From: Marivita sp. XM-24bin2
Lineage (GTDB): Bacteria; Pseudomonadota; Alphaproteobacteria; Rhodobacterales; Rhodobacteraceae
DNA length: 51,156 nt
Direction of reading: 5' to 3'
Assembly: GCA_003149565.1 (NCBI GenBank)
Contig: QCWH01000028.1
Coordinates: 1 to 51,156, forward strand
The translations under genes were made by a program, and so were the position numbers. Of the stretch, positions 2,596 through 7,859 are shown in pieces (the stretch's first letter is position 1; each line of letters starts with the position of its first letter). The notes under the pieces are model-generated. The model worked only from the letters and a program-made list of their open reading frames with translations, was not told where the DNA came from and ran no database searches.

Positions 2596-2631
2596 GGGCG
2601 CAATCCTTCAAAGGATTGCGCCCGAATTTTT
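2596..2631. terminator. Bidirectional intrinsic terminator between apt and scoB
   Basis: A near-perfect hairpin with 13-base arms (2596-2608 and 2611-2623, GC-rich outer half) is followed on the plus strand by GAATTTTT and on the minus strand by TTTTTCTTC, so it fits termination in both directions. It lies between the convergent apt and scoB genes. A second palindrome with arms CCGAATTTT (2622-2630) and AAAATTCGG (2633-2641) overlaps its right edge and reaches to within 8 bases of the scoB stop codon. Confidence 0.85.
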
Positions 2632-2648: not shown

Positions 2649-3275
2649 TCAGACGATGGTGGCCTCGGTGGCCGCCCGCAATTCGTCCTCGGTCACGCCG
2701 TCGGCCACCTCTACGATCTTGAGACCGCCTTCGACCACGTCGAGCACGCCGAGATTGGTGATGATCCGGTCCACCACACCGGCGCCGGTCAGCGGCAGGG
2801 TGCATTCCTTCAAGAGCTTGCTGTCACCGTGCTTGTTGGTGTGGTCCATCACAACGATCACACGGCCCACACCAGCCACGAGATCCATTGCGCCGCCCAT
2901 GCCCTTGACCAACTTGCCCGGAATCATCCAGTTGGCCAGATCGCCGTTTTCGTCCACTTCCATCGCGCCAAGAATTGCCATGGCAATCTTGCCGCCGCGG
3001 ATCATGCCGAAAGAGGTGGCGCTGTCGAAATAGCTGGTGTGAGGCAGTTCGGTAATCGTTTGCTTGCCGGCATTGATCAGGTCAGGGTCTTCTTCACCCT
3101 CATAGGGGAACGGACCCATGCCCAGCATCCCGTTTTCGGATTGCAGGGTCACGGTGACACCCTCGGGGATGTAGTTTGACACCAGCGTCGGGATGCCGAT
3201 TCCCAGATTTACATACATGCCGTCCTGTAATTCCTGCGCCGCGCGTGCAGCCATCTGGTTGCGGTCCCATGCCAT
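2649..3275 (-). CDS. scoB: 3-oxoacid CoA-transferase subunit B
   Basis: Beta subunit of a family I CoA-transferase that moves CoA between acyl groups (typically succinyl-CoA to acetoacetate), as an AB heterodimer. The 208-residue protein begins [16 protein letters not shown] and shows [12 protein letters not shown], then [12 protein letters not shown] containing the glutamate that forms the gamma-glutamyl-CoA thioester in this family, followed by [17 protein letters not shown]. The ATG at 3275 has a GAAGGAA ribosome site upstream; an in-frame start 12 codons earlier looks unused. Its partner scoA lies 1.1 kb upstream on the same strand, with a LOV-domain gene between them, which is unusual because the two subunits are normally adjacent. 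The exact acyl substrate is inferred from family resemblance. Confidence 0.9.
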
Positions 3276-3319
3276 AGAGGTTGTTCCTTCGTTTTTGCGT
3301 AACTGCCGCACGGGGCGGC

Positions 3320-4390
3320 TTATGTTTTGAAATCTGTAAAGCCGACCGGCACGTCGATCATGATCACAGTGCCCGCCGCTCCACGCACGACGTTCAGCGT
3401 ACCATCGAGACCTTCGAGCAGCGATGACACCAGACGGCCTCCAACCGAGTCGATCGAGGGGAAAGACATCTTGGGCGGGATACCCACGCCATCATCCGAG
3501 ATCGACATGCGCAAACCACCAGCTGCGAGACGGTTCACCCGCAGTTCGAGGTAGCCTTGGTCCAGGCCATCAAACGCATGCTGGAAGGCGTTGGACACCA
3601 GTTCGAATGTGATCAGAGCCATCCGGATCGCCGTGTCGAGATTGACCTCAAGCGGCTCGATCAGCGACACAAAGCGGACGCCGGGGCGGCCTTCGTTGTG
3701 GGCAATGGTGTGCGAGATCCGGGAAAGCAGCGAGCCGAGGTCGATGCCGTCACGGTTCCACTGCTCGTCCGCAAGTTTCATCTCTTCATAGACGAATTGC
3801 AGGCATTCAAGCCGCCGCGGCAGCACGTCCAGCATGCGCAGCCGGCGCTTTTGGGCTTCGGGTGACAGGGATCCGTTCTGGTCGGAATCGTCCACCAGCG
3901 AACTCACGATCAGGCCCAGATCCTGATTGACCCGCGAACACACAGTGTCGAGATGAAGCCGCGTCGCATCGGACGCCCGATCCTTTTCATCGTCGCGCAG
4001 TTCTTTCTGGATCCCCAGAAAATAGACCGGTTTTCCGTAGCCATCACTGATCGGCGCGATCAGCAGACGGTTCATGAATGGCTCGCCAGTGGCGCGGTAA
4101 TTCAGGATGTCGACAGCGACATCCTCACCGGCCTCGATGGCATTTCGAATCTTTTGTACGGCAGCGGGGTCGGTGTCTGGCCCTTGCAGGAAACGGCAGT
4201 TCCGACCGATCACCCGCGAGCGTTGATACCCAGTCGTCCGTTCAAACGCGTCATTGATGTAGACGATCGGGTTGTCGTCGGAATTTGGATTTGTGATCAA
4301 CATTGCAACGCTGAGCCGGGAAAACCCGGCAAGCGCCTGACTGTCGTCAAGGACGGATGTCAGTTTTGGTTTATCAACAAGTCTTTCCAC
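3320..4390 (-). CDS. LOV-domain blue-light receptor with HATPase module lacking the usual His
   Basis: 356-residue soluble signalling protein. Residues about 23-130 form a LOV/PAS domain: [12 protein letters not shown], then GRNCRFLQG with the flavin-adduct cysteine at 65, [17 protein letters not shown], and YFLGIQKEL with the flavin-sensing glutamine. A linker and dimerisation-type helix pair (about 138-205) leads to a HisKA_2/HWE-like ATPase with N box [11 protein letters not shown] (Asn267), G box DDGVGIPP and [16 protein letters not shown]. In related kinases the phospho-acceptor His directly precedes an Arg-Val-Lys-Asn-type stretch; here the matching segment reads [10 protein letters not shown], so Ser or Cys takes its place and the nearest His is 146. 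It may therefore be a pseudokinase or use another site. It lies 23 bases after scoA and 44 before scoB on the same strand, implying co-transcription with the CoA-transferase. Confidence 0.88.
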
Positions 4391-4413: not shown

Positions 4414-5118
4414 TCAGGCGGCCGGTCTTGGCCGCGTTGTGCGCTGTTCGATGCGCTTTTCGTGCTCACCCTGAATGATGCGATGCACATAGATGCCAGG
4501 CAGGTGAATGTGATCCGGGTCCAGCTCTCCGGGTTCGACGATTTCTTCAACTTCCATCACGCAAAGCTTGCCACACATTGCGGCTGGCGGATTGAAGTTA
4601 CGCGCGGTCTTGCGGAAAATCGCATTACCGGTCGTGTCCGCCTTCCACGCCTTGACGATGGAGAGATCGGCAAAGATGCCCTCTTCCATGATGTAGGTCT
4701 CACCGTTGAAGTCGCGGTGATCCTTGCCCTCGGCAATGACGGTGCCAACGCCGGTCTTGGTATAAAAGCCTGGAATGCCAGCACCACCAGCGCGCATCCG
4801 CTCTGCCAGTGTGCCCTGCGGGTTGAACTCAAGCTCAAGCTCCCCAGAGAGGTATTGGCGCATGAACTCGGCATTCTCGCCGACATAGGAGCTGATCATT
4901 TTCTTGACCTGCCGCGTCTGCAACAGAATGCCGATGCCGAAATCATCGACACCCGCATTGTTCGATGCAAAGGTCAGATCCTTGACGCCGCTGTCGCGGA
5001 TTGCCGCGAGCAGCAGTTCCGGAATACCGCTCAGGCCAAAACCACCGGCCGCGATCAGCATGCCATCTGTCAGAACGCCCTCAAGCGCTTCAGTTGCTGA
5101 TCCATAGACCTTTTGCAT
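4414..5118 (-). CDS. scoA: 3-oxoacid CoA-transferase subunit A
   Basis: Alpha subunit of the family I CoA-transferase, partner of scoB. The 234-residue protein starts MQKVYGSATEALEGV and carries the glycine-rich CoA-site sequence AAGGFGLSGIPELL (about 23-36), followed by TFASNNAGVDDFGIG, GENAEFMRQYLSGELELE, and GGAGIPGFYTKTGVGT. The C-terminal region contains NFNPPAAMCG and a charged tail ending in RTTRPRPAA. The ATG is preceded by a GGGGAA ribosome-binding stretch. It is the first gene of a three-gene minus-strand unit with the LOV protein and scoB. A long inverted repeat lies 70-131 bases upstream. The enzyme's role in ketone-body or acetoacetate use is the usual one for this family. Confidence 0.9.
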   Translation of the reverse strand: MQKVYGSATEALEGVLTDGMLIAAGGFGLSGIPELLLAAIRDSGVKDLTFASNNAGVDDFGIGILLQTRQVKKMISSYVGENAEFMRQYLSGELELEFNPQGTLAERMRAGGAGIPGFYTKTGVGTVIAEGKDHRDFNGETYIMEEGIFADLSIVKAWKADTTGNAIFRKTARNFNPPAAMCGKLCVMEVEEIVEPGELDPDHIHLPGIYVHRIIQGEHEKRIEQRTTRPRPAA

Positions 5119-5187
5119 CGCAATATTCCCCGCTGTTCAACGCTTCGCTGTTGTGGCGTGTCGCGCGCGACGAGTCAACGGCGCGCT

Positions 5188-5249
5188 TTGGCTGAAAGAG
5201 ATGTGTCAACTTCACGCATCATTGGCAAAGTTGACACTTTTTCAGCCAA
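5188..5249. promoter_or_regulatory. Long two-part inverted repeat upstream of scoA
   Basis: Outer arms TTGGCTGAA (5188-5196) and TTCAGCCAA (5241-5249) and inner arms GTGTCAACTT (5203-5212) and AAGTTGACAC (5228-5237) form a nested inverted repeat with a 15-base centre. It lies 34 bases beyond the topA stop and upstream of scoA. No clean U-tract follows, so it is not a typical terminator; a regulator operator or a structured leader are alternatives. Confidence 0.5.
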
Positions 5250-5282
5250 GGATTTTCTGAAAATCGTCCGGAATGGCCACTA

Positions 5283-7859
5283 TCAAGACTTCTTGGCAGC
5301 GGTCTTTTTCTTGGCAGCAGTTTTCTTGGGAGCTGCCTTTTTCTTTGTACCCTTTTCGGCGGATTTCTCTGAAATCAACGCAACCGCCATATCCATCGTC
5401 ACCGCATCGGGCTCGACATCCTTGGGCAGGGTCGCATTTACCTTTTCCCACTTCACGTAGGGCCCGTACCGGCCCTCCATGACGGCCACCATGCCACCAT
5501 CCTTGGGATGCTCGCCAAGCTCTTTCAGCGGTTTTGCAGCTGCGCCGCGCCCGCGACCGGGATTGGCACGCTTTTCGGCCAAGAGTTCGACCGCACGGTT
5601 CATGCCGATCTCGAACACCTCTTGGAATTCCTTGAGGTTTACATAAACGGGCTTTGCCTCATCCGGCAGCTGATGCATGATAAAGGGACCAAAACGGCCA
5701 AGGTTCGACTTCACCTCGCCACCATCGGGGTGCATCCCGACGACGCGTGGCAACGTCAGCAGAGTGACGGCCTTTTCAAGCGTCATATCATCCGGAGACC
5801 AACCAGGCAGGAAATCGCCCTTGGCTTTGGGCAGACTGGCGCGCGGCGGCTTCTTGTTTTCCGGCGTCGGCTCGCCGCGCTGGACATAAGGACCGAACCG
5901 ACCAGACTTCAGCCAGATCTCGTCACCCTCGTGTTCACCTAAAACGCGCTCGTCGCCTTCGGCACCCTCGCCAGCAATGGGTCGGGTATAGGTACATTCG
6001 GGATAGTTACCACACCCGACAAAACCGCCGGTCCGCGACGTCTTGAGGTGCAAGCGTCCCTGTCCGCATTTTGGGCAAATACGCGGATCACTGCCATCTT
6101 CGCGCGGCGGATACAGCTGTGGCGCCAAAGCATCGTCCAGCACATCGAGCACCTCGGTGATGCGCAGATCCGATGTCTCGGCAATTGCCGCCGAAAAATC
6201 GCGCCAGAATTTCGCGAGCAATTCTTTGTAGTCGCTTTCGCCCGCGCTGACGTGGTCCAGTTCATCCTCAAGCGCGGCCGTAAAATCATACTCCACGTAG
6301 CGTTTGAAGAAGTTGAGCAGGAAGATCGTGACGATACGGCCTTTGTCCTCGGGGATCAGACGGTTCTGTTCCTTGCGGACATATTCGCGGTCCTGGATCG
6401 TCGTGATGATGCTGGCATAGGTTGACGGACGACCGATGCCCAGCTCTTCCATCTTCTTGACCAACGTCGCCTCGGTATAGCGGGGCGGCGGTTGGGTGAA
6501 GTGTTGGTCGGGCGTGATGCTGCGTTTGTCGGCTACCTCGCCCTGCATGATCTGCGGCAGACGCTTGTCGTCATCGTCGACGACGGCATCGTCACGGCCT
6601 TCCTCGTAGACACGCAGGAACCCGTCAAAAAGCACCACCTGACCGTTGGCCCGCAGGACGACCTGACCATCTGCGCTGCCGACATCGACAGTGGTCCGTT
6701 CAAGACGGGCCGATTCCATCTGACATGCCAGCGTGCGTTTCCAGATCAGGTCGTAGAGCTTGCGCTGATCCGGCTCCGACAATTTGAGCGACTGGGCATC
6801 GCGCGACATGTCCGTGGGGCGAATACATTCATGCGCCTCTTGGGCGTTCTTGGCTTTGTTCTTGTAAATACGCGGCTGGCTTGGAACGTAATCCGCACCG
6901 TAGCGGTCTTTGATTGCGGCGCGCGCTTGATCCACGGCTTCCGGCGCCATGTCGATGCCGTCGGTTCGCATATAGGTGATGTGCCCGGCCTCATAAAGGC
7001 GCTGCGCGGCGTTCATTGTCTGACGTGCACCAAACCCGAATTTGCGGCTGGCCTCCTGCTGCAGCGTCGAGGTCATGAAAGGGGCCGACGGGTTACGCGA
7101 GGCGGGTTTCGCCTCGACAGACTGAACCGTCAGGTCACGGCTGGTGATCGCCTGAACGGCGAGTTCAGCCTGTGTTTCGTTCTCGATATCATAGCGGTCG
7201 AGCTTTTTGCCTGCGAGGACCGTCAAACGTGCTTCGTATTCCTGCCCACGCGGTGTGGAGAGCAGCGCCTTCACAGACCAGTATTCACGGGGCTTGAACG
7301 CCTCGATCTCCATTTCCCGCTCAACGATCAATCGCAAACACACCGACTGCACGCGGCCAGCGCTGCGCGCTCCGGGCAGTTTGCGCCAGAGCACAGGAGA
7401 CAGGTTGAAGCCCACAAGGTAGTCGAGGGCGCGGCGGGCGAGATATGCCTCAACCAAAGGCGCATCGATGTCGCGCGGGTTGGCCATAGCCTCGGTCACC
7501 GCCTGCTTGGTGATCGCGTTGAACGTCACACGTTTGACATCTGTCGATTTCTTGATCGCGCGGCGTTTGGTAAGCGCCTCTTTCAAATGCCACGAAATCG
7601 CCTCGCCTTCGCGATCAGGGTCCGTGGCGAGAATGATCGCATCATCGGATTTGAGCGCTTCGGCAATTGCGGCCACATGCTTGCGGGAGTCGGACGCGAC
7701 CTCCCATTTCATGTCAAAGCCGTTTTCCGTGTCCACCGAGCCGTCTTTTGGTGGCAGGTCTCGGACGTGGCCGTATGACGCCAGAACCGTGTAGTCAGAT
7801 CCCAGATATTTGTTGATCGTTTTGGCTTTTGCCGGGGATTCGACAACGACAACTGGCAT
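5283..7859 (-). CDS. topA: DNA topoisomerase I
   Basis: Type IA topoisomerase that relaxes negative supercoils. The 858-residue protein begins with the TOPRIM domain (VVVESPAKAKTINKYLG, then ATDPDREGEAISWH at about 78-91). The catalytic tyrosine is in ITYMRTDG (Tyr296). One C4 zinc-finger-type repeat is clear around ICPKCGQGRLHL with the second cysteine pair in VGCGNYPECTYT. It is followed by topoisomerase C-terminal repeats of the GRFGPYVQ and GRYGPYVK type and a lysine/alanine-rich tail, which is usual for alphaproteobacterial TopA. The start is placed at the ATG before PVVVVESPAK, after a GGAAGGG ribosome site; an upstream in-frame extension has no family similarity. dprA lies further upstream on the same strand, a frequent arrangement in alphaproteobacteria. 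Confidence 0.96.
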   Translation of the reverse strand: MPVVVVESPAKAKTINKYLGSDYTVLASYGHVRDLPPKDGSVDTENGFDMKWEVASDSRKHVAAIAEALKSDDAIILATDPDREGEAISWHLKEALTKRRAIKKSTDVKRVTFNAITKQAVTEAMANPRDIDAPLVEAYLARRALDYLVGFNLSPVLWRKLPGARSAGRVQSVCLRLIVEREMEIEAFKPREYWSVKALLSTPRGQEYEARLTVLAGKKLDRYDIENETQAELAVQAITSRDLTVQSVEAKPASRNPSAPFMTSTLQQEASRKFGFGARQTMNAAQRLYEAGHITYMRTDGIDMAPEAVDQARAAIKDRYGADYVPSQPRIYKNKAKNAQEAHECIRPTDMSRDAQSLKLSEPDQRKLYDLIWKRTLACQMESARLERTTVDVGSADGQVVLRANGQVVLFDGFLRVYEEGRDDAVVDDDDKRLPQIMQGEVADKRSITPDQHFTQPPPRYTEATLVKKMEELGIGRPSTYASIITTIQDREYVRKEQNRLIPEDKGRIVTIFLLNFFKRYVEYDFTAALEDELDHVSAGESDYKELLAKFWRDFSAAIAETSDLRITEVLDVLDDALAPQLYPPREDGSDPRICPKCGQGRLHLKTSRTGGFVGCGNYPECTYTRPIAGEGAEGDERVLGEHEGDEIWLKSGRFGPYVQRGEPTPENKKPPRASLPKAKGDFLPGWSPDDMTLEKAVTLLTLPRVVGMHPDGGEVKSNLGRFGPFIMHQLPDEAKPVYVNLKEFQEVFEIGMNRAVELLAEKRANPGRGRGAAAKPLKELGEHPKDGGMVAVMEGRYGPYVKWEKVNATLPKDVEPDAVTMDMAVALISEKSAEKGTKKKAAPKKTAAKKKTAAKKS

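Follow-up and report, generated by a model that had tools for sequence, protein, structure and literature searches.

The closest described counterpart of the gene considered here is LdaP of D. shibae, the renamed Dshi_1135, a protein of 338 amino acids that carries Cys61 and has Arg148 in place of the kinase histidine. As presented in the available text of PMC10890935, LdaP shows an FMN photocycle, requires its cysteine, does not autophosphorylate, binds PpsR in the dark and acts as an antirepressor of the photosynthesis gene cluster. Dshi_1135 by itself restored pigment on complementation (PMC10890935), from which we infer that the mutant phenotype was no polar effect on scoB. In D. shibae, bchF and ppaA are divergent and associated with four potential PpsR sites, and the accessible portion of the same paper contains no mention of the sco neighbours of Dshi_1135. 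Repression by PpsR/CrtJ is likewise relieved by a photoreceptor or cofactor protein in the case of AppA (BLUF) and PpaA/AerR (B12), although these use sensor domains other than LOV; AppA is absent from D. shibae (PMC10890935). Among the active kinases, EL346 autophosphorylates on His142 (PMC10890935), and a subgroup of EL346-like LOV-HKs without the phospho-acceptor His has already been noted (PMC10359499, in the text available). In the literature found, including two later papers, LdaP is described only for D. shibae as far as the available parts of those texts extend.

The window analyzed here is a contig of 51,156 nucleotides from Marivita sp. XM-24bin2 (QCWH01000028.1), where positions 3320..4390 of the minus strand hold a single ORF of 356 aa with a GTG start. 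A preliminary description of this DNA, made without database searches, had proposed an intact LOV domain, retained ATPase boxes and loss of the kinase histidine, and all three are borne out. In HMMER profile searches the predicted protein matched PAS_9 (PAS/LOV; E 1.5e-19) and, above cut-off, HATPase_c (E 1.1e-6), while HisKA_2 and HWE_HK gave no match in a search from which most matches above E ~0.1 were dropped. The LOV domain (~residues 26-131; 3998..4315, minus strand) contains GRNCRFLQG with the photoactive Cys65, which is invariant in 33/33 rows of alignment A1, and the CA/HATPase domain (~residues 216-350; 3341..3745, minus strand) keeps the N, G1 and G2 ATP-binding boxes. EL346 (PDB 4r3a) is the best solved relative (236 bits over residues 23-350) and differs at the H-box: its VQHRVKNHL pairs with VCSRVNQDL of the Marivita protein (residues 150-158; 3917..3943, minus strand), which places Ser152 at the position of His142 and Asp157 instead of the last H of HRVKNH, so that the K, N and H residues of the motif are lost too. 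Of the features of an HWE/HisKA_2 kinase the protein thus has the three ATP-binding boxes and lacks the H-box His. His146, named earlier as a possible conserved His at the phospho-acceptor site, lies six residues upstream of Ser152 and is not conserved. An AlphaFold2 model (mean pLDDT 80.6) has well-predicted LOV and ATPase parts linked by two helices, 141-165 and 177-209, with pLDDT mostly 60-80, and Ser152 sits in the first of these.

Relatives were collected in 295 genera of the family as well as on public genome contigs; the family scan scored about six candidates per genome and made loci for the best 30, so copies can be missed. The 12 loci closest to the window are 81-94% identical, and 10 of them are titled Marivita. 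Once aligned with MAFFT, the 75 rows, which contain near-copies (L010/L057, L012/L066, L072/L076 and many Marivita), show His in the H-box column in 19 cases and another residue in 56 (Asn 22, Ser 20, Asp 5, Ala 4, Glu 2, and Arg, Thr and Gly one each). Ten paralogues of the genus that keep the His, including one from the window genome itself, show EIQHRVKNHL at this site, and the loss is therefore no alignment artefact. In the tree the 56 His-less proteins make up a single branch nested among the His-intact proteins, the nearest outside row being L018, which is His-intact and sco-linked; loss of the His maps to one event. In a repeat without the H-box columns this branch has a support of 90/84 and is not starred. 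A starred set of 29 rows in the first tree contains the Marivita rows together with L008, which at 338 aa, with C61 and R148 and in scoA-LOV-scoB order on the His-less branch, matches the published Dshi_1135 in length and in both residues. The HisKA_2 Pfam model fails to separate the two groups, as 19 of the 33 A1 members match it while 7 A1 rows are His-intact.

Compared with LdaP, the Marivita protein shares the LOV-DHpL-CA architecture, the Cys motif and the replaced phospho-acceptor His; it groups on the same branch as L008 and sits in the same scoA-LOV-scoB locus, in a genome with ppsR, photosynthesis genes and PpsR-type sites at bchF. It differs in being ~54% identical to L008 and in having Ser rather than Arg at the His site, and whereas PpsR binding and derepression come from D. 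shibae (PMC10890935, in its available text), in Marivita such a function is predicted. We put a probability of about 0.86 on the gene being the Marivita LdaP orthologue, that is, a dark-binding, light-releasing antirepressor of PpsR whose sco locus is probably historical.

The HATPase boxes, which persist among the His-less rows apart from L019, could instead mean that the protein is an active kinase working through another residue, or a functionless kinase in decay, and one member of the clade, the sco-linked L019 (G230), indeed has no HATPase match at E<=0.01 beside an intact LOV motif, in a genome with reaction-centre genes. If L019 still works, ATP binding would be dispensable there. Against such a kinase, 19/19 His-intact rows have the same H, K, N and H residues in HRVKNH, whereas the His-less clade has substitutions there: the first three positions are variable, and the fourth holds Asp in 41 of the 42 rows compared (14 of the 56, being near-copies, extra Marivita or degenerate, were left out of this comparison). 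As for decay, 13/13 Marivita copies compared have 356 codons, and the median dN/dS among these 13 is 0.068 for the LOV domain, 0.139 for the linker/DHp and 0.051 for the CA domain, beside 0.025 for the neighbouring scoA and 0.078 for scoB (the scoB maximum of 2.4 is an outlier, probably from unaligned match starts). Because the medians by domain lie at 0.051-0.139, the Marivita LOV gene, which reads as a dead kinase by motif, is not in decay. With the absence of autophosphorylation in LdaP as reported in the available text of PMC10890935, we regard a working or decaying kinase as extremely unlikely.

On the minus strand the gene order is topA (named by eye), scoA, the LOV gene and scoB. The statement that the gene is sandwiched with short gaps between scoA and scoB proved correct: scoA (3-oxoacid CoA-transferase subunit A; 4414..5118, minus strand) and scoB (subunit B; 2649..3311, minus strand) match TIGR02429 and TIGR02428, respectively, above cut-off, and the gaps are 23 bp on the scoA side and 8 bp on the scoB side, or 44 bp if scoB begins at the ATG at 3275, its likely real start. 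A terminator scan of the coding strand found one strong site, a terminator-like hairpin after scoB with a 12-pair stem and a T run (2596..2623, minus strand; a consensus match) at the end of the putative scoA-ldaP-scoB operon, and one weak site inside the LOV gene (3472-3486), but none in either gap. The topA-scoA intergenic region (5119..5283, minus strand) contains a CGTTGACT box, found upstream of scoA in 14/14 Marivita loci (window, L033-L044, L079); 9/14 also have both half-sites, TGTCAA and TTGACA, of an inverted repeat there. Counted from the start of one half-site to that of the other, their distance is 27 bp, and they directly precede the box, with a spacing that differs from that of the TGT-N12-ACA site of PpsR. 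A canonical PpsR site driving scoA in the window was considered and rejected, as there is no TGT-N12-ACA in the 260 bp upstream of the window copy and such sites are not enriched in the window (6, vs. 7.3 expected from shuffles). Elsewhere, 5 of 60 loci have one such site each upstream of scoA (L005, L042, L044, L053 and L068). The site in L068 (TGTCAGCCGTGATTGACA) is a good PpsR-type site 72 bp upstream of scoA, and as a candidate site it would make the LOV operon a possible target of PpsR in some species.

The preliminary description had also asked for a survey of this synteny, and the scoA-LOV-scoB arrangement was found in many genera, not in this one genome only. Among the matches listed in our literature search (titles and starts of abstracts) there was no description of the arrangement, and a passage search of PMC12148442 found nothing on it. 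The LOV gene lies between scoA and scoB for 51 of the 56 His-less and 8 of the 19 His-intact proteins; a ninth His-intact protein, L024, has scoA as neighbour and is located at a contig end. The His-less copies not seen between the two genes are L013, L065, L072, L073 and L076, of which L065 begins at a contig edge and has no scoB after it. Because the His-less branch nests among His-intact proteins, some of them sco-linked and with L018 the nearest, the scoA|scoB address is probably older than the loss of the His.

The same shared address, with its operon-like spacing and terminator-free gaps, is what favours a role of the LOV protein in ketone/acetoacetate use, on which it would act or with which it would be co-made, as put forward in the preliminary description; light-dependent contact with the ScoAB transferase would be one such route. 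Other tenants of the junction speak against it. The listed matches included 97 scoA places, 92 of them with scoB; in these 92 pairs, which include 12 LOV-bearing ones added on purpose, the two genes were <100 bp apart in 67, had the LOV gene between them in 12 and showed other gaps of 130-3300 bp in 13. In other genera the insert is a GSCFA gene (by Pfam in L089 and judged by eye in a further five genera), a gene for a GH9 enzyme, for a TOD1/MUCI70-like glycosyltransferase or for a YCII protein, or an 82-aa ORF (L084-L096). The junction is thus a recurrent insertion place that tolerates unrelated passengers, which weakens the argument from neighbourhood. Moreover, reaction-centre genes are present in the genomes of all five (5/5) His-less copies for which no position between the two sco genes was seen, and a Marivita without such genes has retained scoAB and lost most of the LOV gene. 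This remnant, in G307 (L079, ~4001-4132; L161), is an in-frame fusion of approximately the first 24 and the last 19 codons (43 in total) between intact scoA and scoB. G349, 99% complete and probably the same as G307, has no reaction-centre gene, and G307 is also without PpsR. Finally, LdaP is an antirepressor of PpsR, and the co-purification table for it in the available text of PMC10890935 (Table 2, 16 rows) has no CoA-transferase subunit. A functional tie to ketone or acetoacetate use is accordingly highly unlikely, and of the original interpretation it is the suggestion of an action other than His phosphorylation that stands.

The orthology with LdaP would lead one to expect the His-less proteins to go together with photosynthesis genes and PpsR, and they do. 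Presence was read from profile searches of genomes, with reaction-centre genes scored by PF00124, which is present in 122/295 genera. Reaction-centre genes occur in 13/13 His-less genera (one of them, G230, counted by the degenerate L019) compared with 109/282 other genera (Fisher p 7e-6), 2/9 His-intact sco-linked genera (p 2e-4) and 7/17 His-intact family-sample loci (p 0.001), where the genera do not count as independent cases, since the tree has a single event of His loss. Because of this single event, the tie between His loss and phototrophy rests on one origin, and an independent-pairs test had one pair only. PpsR was above cut-off in 12/13 His-less genera, the miss being G264 (77% complete); G159, a His-intact sco-linked genus (89% complete), has PpsR only and no reaction-centre gene. 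By rows, 53 of the 54 His-less rows of known status are in genomes with reaction-centre genes, with L024, L029 (PpsR present, no reaction-centre gene detected), L047 and L048 left out of the count. Among the 43 genomes underlying the contig loci, reaction-centre genes are present in all but G299 and G307, hence in 41, and PpsR is present in 40; for the 41 His-less ones, a count that drops the Erythrobacter L075 and the remnant L079, the numbers are 40 and 39. One intact His-less copy, L037 in G299 (probably the same as G348, 87% complete), is in a genome with neither a reaction-centre gene nor PpsR. Two Marinovum-like MAGs with identical LOV proteins (L010/L057) have puf and the His-less LOV gene without PpsR at threshold, which may reflect an incomplete bin or another target.

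A scan of 17 genomes of the genus found both the LOV gene and reaction-centre genes in 12, the LOV gene only in 1 (G348), reaction-centre genes only in 2 and neither in 2 (G349, 99% complete, and G350, 87% complete). The two with reaction-centre genes only are G344, which has no scoA at E 1e-60, and G347, in which scoA and scoB touch. From this pattern (both 12, LOV only 1, reaction-centre only 2), phototrophy seems less dependent on the LOV gene than the LOV gene is on phototrophy, though the within-genus association is by itself not significant (12/13 vs. 2/4, p 0.12).

As a pseudokinase or ATPase-type regulator, the protein might have a partner elsewhere, in the general stress response (PhyR/NepR), for instance, or in a sigma factor. 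It is remotely similar to the SpoIIAB model (E 0.00055) and to PhyK (E 8.6e-5), with scores well below the cut-off in both cases, and for a SpoIIAB/RsbW-type anti-sigma factor the TIGR01925 score is 19.8 bits where the cut-off is 135. NepR is present in the window genome and in 9/13 His-less genera, and the available text of PMC10890935 lists RpoD and subunits of RNA polymerase among the proteins that co-purify with LdaP. On the other hand, NepR was found in 12/12 His-intact genomes vs. 9/13 His-less ones (p 0.096), and PpsR is the defined target of the published orthologue (PMC10890935, in the same text). The general stress response as a universal target was set aside, as NepR was not found in three His-less genomes that are at least 96% complete (G148, G179 and G139). 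A partner other than PpsR is thus very improbable.

In the window genome, pufLM and ppsR are both on contig C46. A stretch of 209 bp where bchF begins (L097 16849-17057) holds three TGT-N12-ACA sites. The last of them overlaps the listed ORF by 6 bp, but this ORF probably starts further downstream; the divergent ORF beside bchF is ppaA-like by eye and position. With these three, TGT-N12-ACA occurs 7 times in 19 kb, against ~3.5 expected.

For distance comparisons 36 PpsR genes were gathered and 27 used, all from His-less genomes; four His-intact rows and L019 were dropped, as were L013, L065, L072 and L073, which have no scoA/scoB pair in the locus. Distances between PpsR proteins correlate with those between LOV proteins when ScoAB, a slow-evolving and hence weak control for ancestry, is taken into account (partial r 0.55, reached by 0/2000 label permutations). 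Divided by domain, the partial r given ScoAB in the 27 genomes is 0.56 for the DHp, 0.57 for the CA and 0.19 for the LOV domain, and by rank the same test is weaker (0.43, 0.42 and 0.12, respectively). When groups are left out, the CA value (0.45-0.75) stays above that of the LOV domain (0.18-0.39), but without Jannaschia the DHp signal drops to 0.25, below the LOV domain at 0.29. The LOV protein also tracks ScoAB given PpsR (0.40). We take these values as a hint, a lead and not a proof, that the dead-kinase module co-evolves with PpsR; the pattern fits a light-sensing LOV domain joined to what would be a PpsR-binding pseudokinase module.

A mechanism for the Marivita LdaP orthologue can be proposed along these lines. 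The LOV domain would bind FMN and, under blue light, couple it to Cys65 as a cysteinyl-flavin adduct. Since the phospho-acceptor His is gone, the usual autophosphorylation would be impossible, and the DHp-like/CA module would serve as a protein-binding output instead of a kinase; we infer that the DHp/CA surface is the contact for PpsR. In the dark the LdaP-like protein would bind PpsR and lift repression of the bacteriochlorophyll, carotenoid and puf genes, and in blue light it would release PpsR, which would then shut the photosynthesis genes down. This dark-on polarity is carried over to Marivita by analogy with D. shibae. A point against this reading is that PpsR peptides were co-purified with LdaP in the light as well as in the dark (PMC10890935, Table 2). 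The position between scoA and scoB would supply shared transcription and is probably historical, the ancestor presumably having been a His-intact LOV kinase already located there. A further proposal, which we offer tentatively and consider rather doubtful, is that a one-time loss of the phospho-acceptor was followed by rebuilding of the kinase module as a PpsR-docking, nucleotide-binding antirepressor that reads both light and ATP/ADP; purifying selection on the ATP pocket is about as strong as on the LOV domain, so such a switch may read the two together.

LdaP itself is already known, and what is added here is the clade-wide pattern and the hint of co-evolution between the dead-kinase module and PpsR. 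The orthology would extend LdaP to a clade with Marivita, Lutimaribacter, Jannaschia, Tateyamaria, Roseobacter and relatives, and offers a possible reason for the absence of the catalytic His in a subgroup of LOV kinases. It also suggests a rule of recognition, in which a protein without the H-box His (usually reading xRVxxDL) encoded in scoA-LOV-scoB order would be a likely blue-light control of photosynthesis. The clade may further represent a sensor kinase that became a protein-protein switch through a change mapping to one branch, for which Asp157, Leu206, Asp208 and Ala338-Ala339, conserved among the His-less proteins and not in the kinases, are candidate contact residues. The genomes of the genus keep, in addition, a second, His-intact LOV kinase (L002; L114-L122), and in the window's own genome this gene (L002, G000:C17:18446-19426) is located away from sco, near ferredoxin-reductase-like and enoyl-ACP-reductase-like genes (named by eye).
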